Made by a program: the position numbers and the translations under genes. A DNA stretch of 64,000 nucleotides from Boseongicola sp. SB0665_bin_10 (GTDB taxonomy: Bacteria > Pseudomonadota > Alphaproteobacteria > Rhodobacterales > Rhodobacteraceae): the NCBI GenBank assembly GCA_009838075.1, contig VXSG01000004.1, positions 1 through 64,000 of the forward strand. The letters are read 5' to 3'. The notes under the pieces were generated by a model that was not told where the DNA came from, made no database searches, and was given only the letters and a program-made list of their open reading frames with translations. Below, in pieces: positions 35,686-59,350 of the stretch (position 1 is the first letter of the stretch; every line of letters begins with the position of its first letter).

Positions 35686-36383
35686 CAGCTCTGATCCAGC
35701 TGGCGTGACAGTATGGTGGCAAATTCGTCGGCAAAGCTCTCGTAGCCCGCAATGATGCGCCCGCTGTCCGCGGAGAGCTTGTTGTAGAAGATCACCGCCG
35801 GAATTGCCGCAAGAAGACCCAGGCCGGTGGCAAGAAGCGCCTCGGCAATTCCGGGCGCGACCACTGCAAGGTTCGTGCTCTGTTGCTGCCCGATCTCGAT
35901 GAAGGCCGACATGATGCCCCATACCGTGCCGAACAGTCCGACGAACGGTGCGGTCGAGCCGATTGTTGCCAGCAGCGGCAGGCCCTTCTGCAGCTCCTCA
36001 GCCTCCTTCTGGATCGCCACGTCCATTGAACGGTCGATCCGCGCATGCGCCCCGCCGATGGCCATCCCGTCCGCCTTGTGTGAACGCCGCCACTCGGTCA
36101 TTCCGGCGACGAAGACACGTTCGGTTCGTCCCGACGGAATCGGCCCCAGCGCGTCATAGAGGGTGTCCAGCGGCTCACCCGACCAGAAGGACGCCTCGAA
36201 CCTTTGCGTCTCGCGTCGTGCGCGCCAATACTGGCCGTGCTTGTTGATGATGACGGCCCAGCACCAGAACGAGGCGAAAACAAGCAGTACCATCACCACC
36301 TTGACGACGATCGTGGCACGCGCGAACAGCGCCCACATGGAGAATTCCATCTCCTGCACCAACGCAAGGGTTTCCGCTTCCAT
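35685..36383 (-). CDS. tolQ: TolQ, proton channel of the Tol-Pal system
   Basis: A 232-aa MotA/ExbB/TolQ channel with three membrane segments: VVKVVMVLLVFASFWCWAVI, then STAPFVGLFGTVWGIM, then ALLATGLGLLAAIPAVIFY. It forms the pore with TolR. The AAGAGAG site supports the ATG at 36383. It lies 114 bp after ybgC. Confidence 0.97.
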   Translation of the reverse strand: MEAETLALVQEMEFSMWALFARATIVVKVVMVLLVFASFWCWAVIINKHGQYWRARRETQRFEASFWSGEPLDTLYDALGPIPSGRTERVFVAGMTEWRRSHKADGMAIGGAHARIDRSMDVAIQKEAEELQKGLPLLATIGSTAPFVGLFGTVWGIMSAFIEIGQQQSTNLAVVAPGIAEALLATGLGLLAAIPAVIFYNKLSADSGRIIAGYESFADEFATILSRQLDQS

Positions 36384-55447: not shown

Positions 55448-58183
55448 TCATCGTTCGGTGAGCTTCAGCTCGATCCGCCGGTTCTGCGCCCGGGCTGCGT
55501 CGGTGTCCTCCGGGTTGACCGGCCGGTATTCGCCGAATCCCGCGGCGGCCAGCCGTTCCGGCGGGAAGCCCAGCGTCCCGGTCATGTATTTCACCACCGA
55601 CAGCGCGCGGCCCGCGCTGAGCTCCCAGTTGTCCGCGAACGCGCCCGCCACCACCACCGGCGCGTTGTCGGTGTGCCCGTCGACCCGCAGCACCCAGTCG
55701 AGGTTCGGCGGGATCTCGTCGGCCACCTCCTCGAGGATCCCCGCGACCTCCTCGATCGACGCCTGCCCCTCCGGCAGCAGCGTCGCCGAGCCGCTCTCGA
55801 ACAGCACCTCCGACGGGAACAGGAACCGGTCGCCGACGACCCGCACACCCTCCCGGTCGCCCAGGACCCGCCGCAGCGTGCCGAAGAACTCCGACCGGTA
55901 GGCGGCGAGGTCGACCACCTCCTCGTCCAGCGCCGCCTTCTCGCGCCGCAGCCGCTCCGCCTCCGCCGCCTCCAGCGCCGCGCGCCGCCGCTGCTCCGCC
56001 GCCACGCGGGCCAGCGCCCGGTTCAGCCGGCTCCCCAGCGCGTCGATCCGCACCCGGGACTCCCTGTCCCGCTCCTCGGCGCTGTCCAGGAGCCTCGAGA
56101 GCTCCGCCAGCTGGCCCCGGAGCGCGGCCACCTGCGCGTTCAGCAGCGCCACCTCGCGCTGCGCCCGCGAGGAGATCTCCCGCTCCTCCGCCAGCTGCCG
56201 GCCGGCCGTGTCGAGGAGGGCCTGCCTCCGGTCCCGCTCGTCGATCGCGCCCGCGCGCGCGTCCTCCGCCGCCAGCCGCGCCGCAAGCGCGGCGGCCAGC
56301 TCCTCGCGCAGCCGCGCAGCGTCCGCCTCCGCGTCCGCCTCCGCGTCCCGCAGCGCCGACACCTCCTCCCGGAGCCTGTCGCGGGCCGCCGCCAGCAGCG
56401 CCAGCTCGGCCAACGCGCCGTCCCGGCCGGACTCCGCCTCCTCAAGCAGGCCTTCCGCGCGGCCGAGCCGCGCGAGGGCCTCGTCAAGCCGCGCGTTCAG
56501 CTCCTCCCCGGCCGCGCCGGCCGCCGCCAGCTCGGCCAGCGCGCCGTCCCGGCCGGACTCCGCCTCCTCAAGCAGGCCCTCCGCGAGGACGAGCTTCGCG
56601 ACCACCTCGGCAAGCCGCGCGTTCAGCTCCTCCTCGGCCGCGTTGGCCGCCGCGAGCAGGGCAAGCGTCTCCTCGGCGTCCTTCCGCGCCTCCTCGAGCT
56701 GGAGCGACAGCGCGGTCAGCTCGGCGTTCGAGTTGCGCAGCCTCTCGCGCAGCGCCTCCGCGATCGCCGCCTCCGCGAGCCGCGCCGCCTCCTTCGCGTC
56801 AAGCTCCGCCTGCGCGCTGTCGGCCTGCGCCAGCAGCTCCCTGATGACCGCCGCGTCGGCCTCGGCGCCGCTGCGGGCACTGCCAAGCTCGGCCCGGGCC
56901 TCGGCCAGCGACGCCGCGGCCTCGGCCCCGGCGGCCTCCGAGCGCTCCAGCGCCGCCAGCGCGTCCGCCAGGGACGCGTCGCGCGCCGCAATGTCGGCCA
57001 GGGCACGGGCCAGCAGCGCGGCGGTCTCGGTCTCGGTCACTTCCGACCGCTCAAGCGCCGCGTAGGCTTCCGCCAGGGACACGTCGCGCGCCTCGATGTC
57101 GGCAAGGGCACGGGCCAGCAACGCCGCGGTCTCCGCCTCGGTGGATTCAGACCGCTCGAGGGCGGCGCGGGCTTCCGCAAGGGACGCGTTGCGCGCCTCG
57201 ACGTCAGCCAGGGCGCGGACCAGCAGCGCCGCGGTCTCCGCCTCGGTCATTTCGGACTGCTCAAGCGCCGCCAGGGCTTGCGCAAGGGACACGTCCCGCG
57301 CCTCGATGTCGGCAAGGGCACGAACCAGCAACGCCGCGGTCTCCGCCTCGGTGATTTCCGACTGCTCGAGTGCGGCGCGAGCTTCCGCAAGGGACGCGTC
57401 GCGCTCCTCGAGGTCGGCCAGGGCGCGGGCCAGCAACGCAGCGGTCTCCGCCTCGGAGATTTCCGATCGCCTGAGCGCCGCGAGGGCTTGCGCAAGGGAC
57501 ACGTCGCGCTCCTCGACATCGGCCAGGGCACGGACAAGCAATGCGGCAGTCTCCGCCTCGGAGATTTCAGACTGCTCAAGCGCCGCGAGAGCTTGCGTCA
57601 GGGACGCCTCGCGCGCCGCTACGTCAACCCGTAGCCGAGCCGCAACCGCCTCAAGAGTCCGGCTTTCCTCCAATGCACTGTCACGCTCGATCAGCAATGC
57701 GGCTATCTGCTCCTCAAAACTGGCGATCGTCGCATCCCGATCGCGAAGCGTGCGCGCCTGCACATCGATCTGACCCGTGAGACTCGCGATGAGCGCAGCC
57801 TGCCGGTCGGTCTCGCCCTGCAATCTTGCAATCGCTTCATCCCGCACGAGAAGCGTGTGCGCCTGCGCGTCGATCTGGCCGGTGAGATCGGCGATGAGCG
57901 CGGCCTGCCGCTCGGTCTCGCCTTGCAGCGTGGCAACGCCTTGCCGAAGTTGCGTGGCTTCCTGCTTCGACAGTCCGAGCGCCTCGCTGAGTGCCAGCAC
58001 TTCTGCCGACAGGTCGCCGAGCGCCGACTCCTGTCCCGTAATGGTCTCTCGCAGGACTGCCTGCACGAACATGAAAATCGTGAGCAGGAAAATCAGCACC
58101 AGAAGCAGGGCTGCCATGGCATCCACGAAGCCCGGCCAGATCGAACCGGACACGCGCTGCATCGACCTATGTGTCAGGGCCAT
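55448..58183 (-). CDS. Very long coiled-coil protein with MotB-like anchor and C-terminal OmpA domain
   Basis: A 911-aa protein. Residues about 22-44 form one membrane segment preceded by WPGFVDAM, whose Asp21 is placed like the proton-carrying Asp of MotB/ExbD-type stators. Residues about 45-780 are an almost unbroken Ala/Glu/Leu/Arg coiled coil, with a 35-residue period starting near residue 86 and six clear copies at 194-403. The end (about 780-911) is an OmpA/MotB peptidoglycan-binding domain (VDGHTDNAPVV, WELSAGRALSV, FGEYRPVNPED, RRIELKL). It lies 3 bp after the ExbB-like channel gene, so the two are partners. Such pairs are annotated as biopolymer transporter plus peptidoglycan-binding protein; the output is not known. 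Confidence 0.92.
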   Translation of the reverse strand: MALTHRSMQRVSGSIWPGFVDAMAALLLVLIFLLTIFMFVQAVLRETITGQESALGDLSAEVLALSEALGLSKQEATQLRQGVATLQGETERQAALIADLTGQIDAQAHTLLVRDEAIARLQGETDRQAALIASLTGQIDVQARTLRDRDATIASFEEQIAALLIERDSALEESRTLEAVAARLRVDVAAREASLTQALAALEQSEISEAETAALLVRALADVEERDVSLAQALAALRRSEISEAETAALLARALADLEERDASLAEARAALEQSEITEAETAALLVRALADIEARDVSLAQALAALEQSEMTEAETAALLVRALADVEARNASLAEARAALERSESTEAETAALLARALADIEARDVSLAEAYAALERSEVTETETAALLARALADIAARDASLADALAALERSEAAGAEAAASLAEARAELGSARSGAEADAAVIRELLAQADSAQAELDAKEAARLAEAAIAEALRERLRNSNAELTALSLQLEEARKDAEETLALLAAANAAEEELNARLAEVVAKLVLAEGLLEEAESGRDGALAELAAAGAAGEELNARLDEALARLGRAEGLLEEAESGRDGALAELALLAAARDRLREEVSALRDAEADAEADAARLREELAAALAARLAAEDARAGAIDERDRRQALLDTAGRQLAEEREISSRAQREVALLNAQVAALRGQLAELSRLLDSAEERDRESRVRIDALGSRLNRALARVAAEQRRRAALEAAEAERLRREKAALDEEVVDLAAYRSEFFGTLRRVLGDREGVRVVGDRFLFPSEVLFESGSATLLPEGQASIEEVAGILEEVADEIPPNLDWVLRVDGHTDNAPVVVAGAFADNWELSAGRALSVVKYMTGTLGFPPERLAAAGFGEYRPVNPEDTDAARAQNRRIELKLTER
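56405..56590 (-). repeat. Duplicated segment in the coiled-coil gene
   Basis: A second, separate duplication: AEGLLEEAESGRDGALAEL occurs twice about 40 residues apart, with nearly identical DNA (gcgccgtcccggccggactc in both). It points to recent internal duplication in the distal coil. Confidence 0.75.
56975..57604 (-). repeat. Six tandem 105-bp (35-aa) units in the coiled-coil gene
   Basis: Six head-to-tail copies of a 35-residue unit of the type SLAxALAALEQSEISEAETAALLxRALADxEARDx, residues 194-403, clear at both protein and DNA level. A decayed seventh follows. Units at residues 86-120 and 121-155 (LQGETxRQAALIAxLTGQIDxQA) keep the same 35-residue spacing with different sequence. Confidence 0.92.
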
Positions 58184-58186
58184 GGT

Positions 58187-59350
58187 TCAAGGTCCATCCT
58201 GACCGTGCTGCCCAAGCGCCCGTATCTCCTTCGTCAATTCTGCAAGATCGGCCCTCAGCGCACCCATGCTTTCCTGCCGGCCAGCCGAGACTTCTTCCAG
58301 AATGCGAAGCACCTGAATGTCCATTGACCTCAAGCGCCGGCGGCTTTCCGCGTCAAAGCCACTGGCCCCTTCCCGCACCAGCCCTTCCAGGGCGGCCACA
58401 AGACGGTCCTGAGCCTCGGAATTCCATTCAAGGTCGCGTTCGCCAAGGTTTTCGTTGAGCGCACCTATGGCATCGACGACCCTTTCCAATTGCTTGCTGT
58501 CGGCAACGCGTTGCTCTGTTGTTTCGGCATAGGCCGTCTGCAGCTGATTCATCTGCTCGGCAAGGTGTTCAACCAGTTGCGAAAGCGAGCCCTCTTCGCC
58601 GCCCGCCCCCTCTTCGCCAGCGAATCCGACCCGGGTCATGCTAGAGAGCCACTCCTCAAGTTCTCGAAAGAAGCGGTTCTGGCCGTGACTGGCAAAAAGT
58701 TCCAGGATCCCGACAACGAGCGACCCGGCCAATCCCAAAAGCGAGGACGCAAAGGCGATGCCCATTCCTTCAAGCTGGTCCTCAAGACCGGATATCAGGC
58801 GCTCGAACACCGTGACGCCGCTTTCGCCTTCCGCTGGGGCCAATGCCCGAATCGTGTCCACCACGGCGGGCACAGTGGTGGCGAGACCATAGAATGTGCC
58901 CAGAAGACCCAGAAAAATAAGGAGATTTATGATGTATCGCGTGATGTCGCGAGCTTCGTCAATGCGCGTTGCGACGGAATCCAGGATCGAGCGGGAGGAC
59001 GACGCGCCGATCTGGCTTCCTGCGCTCTTCTTGCGCAGGAGAGCAGCCAACGGAGCCAGCAGCCTCGGTGCCTTGACCAGCTCGTGGCCTGGGCGACCCT
59101 GGGCAAACCCCTCGATCCAGCTGACCGACGACACCAACTGAAAGATCTGCCAGAAGCAGGCCACGACCCCTATGACAAAGACAAGAGCTATGAACGCGTT
59201 GAACCATGGGTTCGCAAGGAAGACGGGAGCGACCCGCGGGAAGGCCAGCACGGCCCCGACGCCGACCAGCGTCAACACCAGGATCATCGTCATGAACTGA
59301 CGATAAGGTTGCGTGAAATCCCACTCAGCCTCGGTGTCCGGCCGGCTCAT
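58187..59350 (-). CDS. MotA/TolQ/ExbB proton channel family protein
   Basis: A 387-aa channel subunit with four hydrophobic segments: MTMILVLTLVGVGAVLAF, FNAFIALVFVIGVVACFW, TRYIINLLIFLGLLGTFYGLA and GIAFASSLLGLAGSLVVGIL. The last two carry the ExbB-type pore features. From about residue 240 it has a long cytoplasmic helical tail (LVEHLAEQMNQLQTAYAETTEQRVADSKQLERVVDAIGAL), longer than TolQ or ExbB and recalling ZorA. The ATG at 59350 gives the expected N terminus; the tracked ORF adds 23 residues. It should form a proton channel with the downstream OmpA-like protein. Confidence 0.92.
   Translation of the reverse strand: MSRPDTEAEWDFTQPYRQFMTMILVLTLVGVGAVLAFPRVAPVFLANPWFNAFIALVFVIGVVACFWQIFQLVSSVSWIEGFAQGRPGHELVKAPRLLAPLAALLRKKSAGSQIGASSSRSILDSVATRIDEARDITRYIINLLIFLGLLGTFYGLATTVPAVVDTIRALAPAEGESGVTVFERLISGLEDQLEGMGIAFASSLLGLAGSLVVGILELFASHGQNRFFRELEEWLSSMTRVGFAGEEGAGGEEGSLSQLVEHLAEQMNQLQTAYAETTEQRVADSKQLERVVDAIGALNENLGERDLEWNSEAQDRLVAALEGLVREGASGFDAESRRRLRSMDIQVLRILEEVSAGRQESMGALRADLAELTKEIRALGQHGQDGP

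Follow-up and report, generated by a model that had tools for sequence, protein, structure and literature searches.

This analysis concerns two adjacent genes, a putative envelope motor, in a 64,000-nucleotide stretch of Boseongicola sp. SB0665_bin_10 (Rhodobacteraceae; contig VXSG01000004.1, positions 1 to 64,000), referred to here as the window. The first gene encodes a membrane channel subunit and the second a very long single-pass partner ending in an OmpA-like peptidoglycan-binding domain (Table 1). Both lie on the minus strand, channel first and 3 base pairs (bp) apart, and the listing of open reading frames (ORFs) bears out the positions and spacing reported in a preliminary description made from the sequence.

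Table 1. Features of the channel-partner gene pair in window coordinates (aa, amino acids; TM, transmembrane).
Feature	Position	Strand	Basis
Channel (A) subunit, 387 aa	58187..59350	(-)	ORF, ATG at 59350; fold; alignment
Partner (B) subunit, 911 aa, NCBIfam PRK09039.1-1 'peptidoglycan -binding protein'	55448..58183	(-)	ORF; NF006542 match; Pfam OmpA
Partner TM helix (aa 13-49), invariant WPGFVDA motif	58037..58147	(-)	Conservation; Asp21 codon 58121-58123
Partner coiled coil, about aa 50-774, proline-free	55862..58036	(-)	AlphaFold2 helices, proline scan, modulo-7 lengths of 105 homologues
Tandem repeat in coil, 105 bp unit (35 aa = 5 heptads), 6.9 copies	56889..57617	(-)	
Tandem repeat in coil, 126 bp unit (42 aa = 6 heptads), 2.2 copies	56384..56657	(-)	
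Partner OmpA-like peptidoglycan-binding domain (aa 794-902)	55478..55804	(-)	GHTD, NWELSxxRA, NRRIE signatures; Pfam

Hydropathy places the TM segments of the channel at residues 17-46 and 40-77 (overlapping windows of two helices), 139-164 and 195-222. AlphaFold2 predicts helices at 16-46, 48-83, 116-169 and 178-238, followed by helical tail segments at 254-384, with a mean predicted local distance difference test score (pLDDT) of 81.6; both methods agree with the four-segment ExbB/MotA-type protein with a long helical tail that had been described. TM3 bears LIFLGLLGTFYGL and TM4 bears GMGIAFASSLLGLAGS, and the cytoplasmic tail terminates in a motif conserved in the alignment, DAESRxRLRSxDxQxLRILEExSAGRQE. 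The partner has a single hydropathy segment (13-49) with Asp21 at the start of the TM helix, and its C-terminal domain matches Pfam OmpA at 6e-15 (55.8 bits against a cut-off of 27.2), as expected from the single-pass, Asp-bearing OmpA protein first proposed. Its AlphaFold2 helices (20-204, 209-309, 314-379, 384-585 and 591-774) run from residue 20 to 774 with four short breaks, at a mean pLDDT of 71.1, so that the overall predicted shape is not reliable. The partner is the eighth longest among 69 from Rhodobacteraceae (range 472-1157), and its length is therefore not extreme. The channel-partner order is common to all loci read except one, and the gap in Rhodobacteraceae is typically 3 bp. 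At the exceptional locus (L098), a 563-residue channel relative has its WPGFVDAL partner upstream, not downstream.

The channel passes no curated Pfam or NCBIfam cut-off. The Pfam model PF01618 (MotA_ExbB) scores the window protein at 12.9 bits, under its gathering cut-off of 22.9, and matches 26 of 36 diverse channel relatives at E<=0.01 (best 1e-5). A sequence search of solved structures returned nothing for the channel; comparison of its predicted fold with the PDB gave Foldseek probabilities of up to 1.00 and VIA Z of about 10-11.4 across about 190 residues. ExbB, TolQ, ZorA and MotA head both PDB comparisons, which places the channel in the MotA/TolQ/ExbB fold class. The partner scores 603.6 bits against NCBIfam NF006542 (PRK09039.1-1; cut-off 388), and all 30 diverse partners match the same model set. 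A Sinorhizobium meliloti record labels homologous neighbours 'MotA/TolQ/ExbB proton channel family protein' and 'peptidoglycan -binding protein'. The NF006542 family has names, but no studied function in the literature searched; its entry assigns no function and makes no mention of a channel or motor. No placement in a characterised subfamily emerged from the profile searches, so that the pair is rightly called uncharacterised.

Invariant residues lie where a motor of this superfamily would couple ions and hold the cell wall. Across 36 channels from many families of the Alphaproteobacteria, G148, G151, T152, F153, G155, F200 and S203 are invariant, and in profile alignments T152 coincides with a Thr of ZorA (ITGTFLG), of TolQ (LFGTVWG) and of related beta- and gammaproteobacterial families. 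W16, P17, V20 and D21 are invariant in 30 partners, and the motif WPG[FYW]VD occurs in 66/66 named loci. The superfamily site, a TM Asp in the partner and a polar Thr/Ser ring in the channel, is thus present in every protein compared (D21 in 30/30; T152 and S203 in 36/36). In the OmpA domain, H837, D839 (the GHTD Asp), N852, W853, L855, R859, N901-R903 and E905 are likewise invariant in 30/30 partners. To judge from sequence, these residues are the equipment expected for ion coupling and peptidoglycan binding; rotation itself is an inference.

The distribution of the pair is that of a core gene set. A channel match occurs in 149/149 genomes of the order, strong in 148, with one main copy in each; in the class as a whole, 189 of 289 genomes hold a channel at E<=1e-6 with the diverse profile. 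Outside the class, strong matches were found in five sampled genomes, three of them from one genus. The channel is retained in genomes of 0.7-0.9 Mb, mostly with an estimated completeness of 97-100%. One member of the order (G006, 100% estimated completeness) has a channel match of only E 1.8e-4, a possible natural loss. No match to the channel was found in a phage collection, and the three in a plasmid collection all lie on rhizobial replicons larger than 3.5 Mb. One such record (L185, CP090106.1), 3.7 Mb long and titled Sinorhizobium meliloti plasmid pSymB, holds purE and rpmE together with the motor locus, and may carry a wrong replicon label. A scattered distribution is typical of defence systems. 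Since the pair is single-copy, near-universal in the order and kept in genomes below 1 Mb, a housekeeping role is more likely for it than defence; the choice between envelope maintenance and defence, left undecided in the preliminary description, is tipped by these counts towards the former.

The coil that separates membrane from cell wall follows a rule of its own. Coil length was taken from the WPGFVD TM motif to the GDRF motif that precedes the OmpA domain in 105 homologues; it ranges from 163 to 1014 residues, with 80 distinct lengths. These fall in the modulo-7 classes 0 to 6 as 1, 13, 17, 1, 5, 37 and 6 (p 2.8e-16): 37/80 lengths are 5 mod 7, 17 are 2 mod 7 (+4, a stutter), 13 are 1 mod 7 (+3), and the other four classes together hold 13. 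Rhodobacteraceae (p 7e-8) and the remaining families (p 3e-10) each show the bias when tested apart, and the picture is unchanged with looser end motifs, with which some homologues were missed. Among moduli 2 to 15 the deviation appears only at 7 and at its multiple 14, and there lengths occur in each of the two possible classes (16 and 21). The window coil (768) and that of a close relative whose channel is 91% identical (L106; 852) are both 5 mod 7. Applied to the window coil alone, a Fourier test for period 3.5 gave 1.44 (shuffles: mean 0.25, maximum 2.03); this signal is only moderate, so the argument rests on the homologue lengths. The 105- and 126-bp repeats, of five and six heptads, show one route by which the coil has grown; tandem copying alone is a weak explanation of the pattern because strong internal repeats occur in only three homologues.

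The simplest reading of the lengths is one continuous coiled coil with its register preserved from end to end. Hairpin arms would favour 14-residue steps, and no such preference was seen, so a continuous coil fits better than a two-arm hairpin, which is unsupported as a default shape. The long helical coil of the preliminary description stands, at about 725 residues and roughly 108 nm if fully helical rather than some 730 residues and 110 nm; the claim that it must fold back finds no support, since the modulo-7 lock without a 14-residue bias and the lack of proline in the window coil favour continuity. A straight coil of ∼110 nm cannot stand across the periplasm. It would have to lie along the periplasm, bend, or fold in a way that tolerates single-heptad steps.

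Taken together, and with a probability of roughly 0.6, the pair is a non-flagellar ion-driven rotary motor of the ExbB/TolQ/MotA/ZorA superfamily, a vertically inherited part of the alphaproteobacterial core whose most probable role lies in the envelope and not in phage defence. By analogy with characterised members, five channel copies would surround the TM helices of two partner copies. Ion flow through the site formed by Asp21 and Thr152-Ser203 would turn the channel ring relative to the partner, which would be held in the peptidoglycan by the OmpA domain at the tip of a long parallel coiled coil. The coil would serve as a continuous shaft or tether, its length changing almost only by whole heptads or standard coiled-coil stutters, and the pair's task may be to couple inner membrane and cell wall, with an input of energy, while the cell grows or is under stress. 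Counted in favour of this motor are also the housekeeping genes that adjoin it, efp/suhB in most other orders and hisC-tyrA-chaC in Rhodobacteraceae.

Several points weigh on the other side: (i) the pentamer:dimer assembly is borrowed by analogy, (ii) the Foldseek E-values for the channel are modest (best 0.008), (iii) about a third of the sampled alphaproteobacterial genomes lack the system, which must be dispensable in some lineages, (iv) the modulo-7 test leaves some relatedness between sequences in place, (v) efp and suhB as neighbours give nothing specific on an envelope role, and (vi) no experimental work on a member turned up in a literature search on PRK09039 and on the alphaproteobacterial channel/OmpA pair. 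Among the entries tabulated for the Rhodobacter sphaeroides CenKR regulon, the pair could not be identified.

The gene neighbourhood bears on a different kind of envelope function. In the window the pair is flanked by aroB, aroK, xerD, a CNNM-type transporter gene, chaC, a DUF2125 gene, tyrA and hisC, and hisC-tyrA-chaC is its context in Rhodobacteraceae. Outside this family the usual order is efp, suhB, a gene for a secreted OmpA-like protein, channel and partner. The secreted protein has a signal-peptide-like N-terminus (judged by eye), a long Pro-rich linker and a C-terminal Pfam OmpA domain; its gene was seen, for example, at L062:8102-9508 and L063:10557-11687, among loci L061-L086. If the pair were instead an energised machine for the outer membrane, comparable to Tol-Pal or Ton, the secreted protein would be its periplasmic client; a profile of this third protein places its gene directly upstream of 113 of the 149 listed class channels, at a median distance of 68 bp. 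Such a system is nevertheless unlikely. The gene is absent from the sampled Rhodobacteraceae, the window genome included (best match 1.5e-8), and is missing at the Sinorhizobium locus as well; of ten loci read that have the gene without a listed channel, not one holds channel or partner (8/10 keep efp and suhB); and its OmpA-like domain lacks the conserved GHTD Asp. Because gene and motor each occur alone, the secreted protein is a conserved neighbour and not an obligate component, and as an obligate third partner it was rejected. A conserved third partner, for which a survey of neighbourhoods had been suggested, was thus found as a neighbour in most other Alphaproteobacteria; the window genome lacks it, and some loci have it where there is no motor. 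The protein is possibly a partner in some lineages.

Compared with TolQR and ExbBD, the channel shares the fold and the ring Thr; their partner is short with a small periplasmic domain, whereas the partner here carries a Pfam OmpA domain. TolQ itself lies in a separate tol cluster (window 35739-36083) and is the sole MotA_ExbB Pfam match in the genome, which suggests a non-flagellated organism. The separate encoding of tolQR was therefore correctly noted, and the pair is the second such proton-motive pair in the genome, not the third.

Resemblance to the Zorya anti-phage motor is closer. ZorAB of types I-III likewise combine a four-TM channel bearing a cytoplasmic extension with a single-pass, Asp-bearing OmpA partner, and of the named families they come closest by profile: each of the 36 diverse channels hits PADLOC ZorA1 or ZorA3 (best 5e-16), and these matches are stronger than those to Pfam MotA_ExbB. 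The nearest outside relatives (L186-L188) encode a DUF802-type channel and, after it, a ZorB-like OmpA protein, an arrangement that fits Zorya type III (PMC8565338). In a Zorya-like system the motor would sense perturbation of the envelope by a phage, and the tail would signal to an effector encoded elsewhere. This is quite unlikely. With the ZorA1 model the window channel reaches 33 bits and its family no more than about 55, whereas genuine ZorA scores 294-472 and is rare (2/249 genomes surveyed in the phylum); no NCBIfam ZorA model matches the window channel at E<=0.01. A PADLOC scan of nine flanking genes found no credible Zorya accessory, in line with the earlier remark that ZorC, ZorD and ZorE are not adjacent. 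The tail required for defence in Zorya (PMC11890865) is absent in some members of the present family. Tailless channels of about 243-268 residues occur in one genus outside the class (243 residues at L093 in genome G586, where the partner is normal; similar open frames in the sister genomes G552 and G492), and a tail-mediated cytoplasmic output therefore cannot be general. The pair thus differs from Zorya in its shorter or absent tail, its very long periplasmic coil, its lack of accessory genes and its core rather than patchy distribution, with near-universal single copies in the order and retention in genomes below 1 Mb. In anatomy it is like a ZorAB/MotAB-type motor, but it is not filed as Zorya.

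Profile comparison with hhalign finds the nearest relatives in betaproteobacterial-type DUF802 channels with a short OmpA partner (1.5e-13, 138 columns) and in channels paired with a vWA-like partner (1.2e-12); the beta- or gammaproteobacterial assignment of these loci is a reading of their gene content. ZorA type I (3e-5) and TolQ (2e-5) are more distant, with short or shallow alignments. The DUF802 pairs have a long DUF802 tail and a partner of 213-225 residues, in contrast with the short tail and very long partner described here. At L186-L188 the DUF802-type channels are 675-789 residues long, and behind each come a gene for a short OmpA partner and one further small gene; these loci look like Zorya type III. 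The type III accessories are DUF3348 and DUF2894 (PMC8565338), and the likeness is drawn from the channel and OmpA gene. In the TPH-vWA motor pairs (PMC12204202), too, a TolQ-like channel is paired directly with a partner that bears an Asp, and there is no TolR or ExbD; the C-terminal domain of that partner appears to be of vWA type instead of OmpA. Loci L189-L193, in some genomes of 1.6-2.0 Mb from the phylum, look TPH-vWA-like and are those that gave the 1.2e-12 alignment; a ∼340-residue channel is directly followed by a 260-residue partner with a TM Asp near its N-terminus and what may be a vWA-like domain.

The same anatomy would also suit a gated ion channel or a sensor of the envelope that does not rotate productively and is opened by stretch on the peptidoglycan-anchored coil. 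The large tolerance of coil length is easier to accommodate in a tether than in a defined stroke. The modulo-7 phase, on the other hand, suggests that rotational register or coil continuity matters, and the superfamily precedent (PMC9389320) is rotary, which makes this reading distinctly improbable. A flagellar stator paralogue, as the match of the partner's C-terminal domain to MotB structures (5.6e-17) and the OmpA-type anchor and TM Asp shared with MotAB and PomAB might suggest, is very improbable indeed, given a long coil in place of plug and short linker, no flagellar association, no flagellar MotA match in the genome or in seven genus relatives (each with TolQ as its single MotA_ExbB Pfam match), and no NCBIfam match of the window channel at E<=0.01, MotA models included (1/36 relatives touches TIGR03818 at 0.0098).

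For the rotary envelope motor, the near-exclusive change of coil length by whole heptads hints at a rigid shaft. A tentative extension is that this core alphaproteobacterial motor carries a phase-locked, peptidoglycan-anchored shaft of about 25 to 150 nm that would be long enough to lie laterally in the periplasm and pass torque or tension to distant sites of the cell wall. A 2025 phylogeny of the superfamily (PMC12505986) states that an OmpA-type anchor is lacking in non-flagellar B subunits and leaves ZorAB to one side as a remote homologue; the present family, in contrast, is a widespread non-flagellar pair that bears such an anchor. A motor-like pair kept by most sampled Alphaproteobacteria, small genomes included, appears to be without a known function, and the coil-phase rule offers a sharp and cheap test of whether rotational register passes from the membrane to the cell wall.

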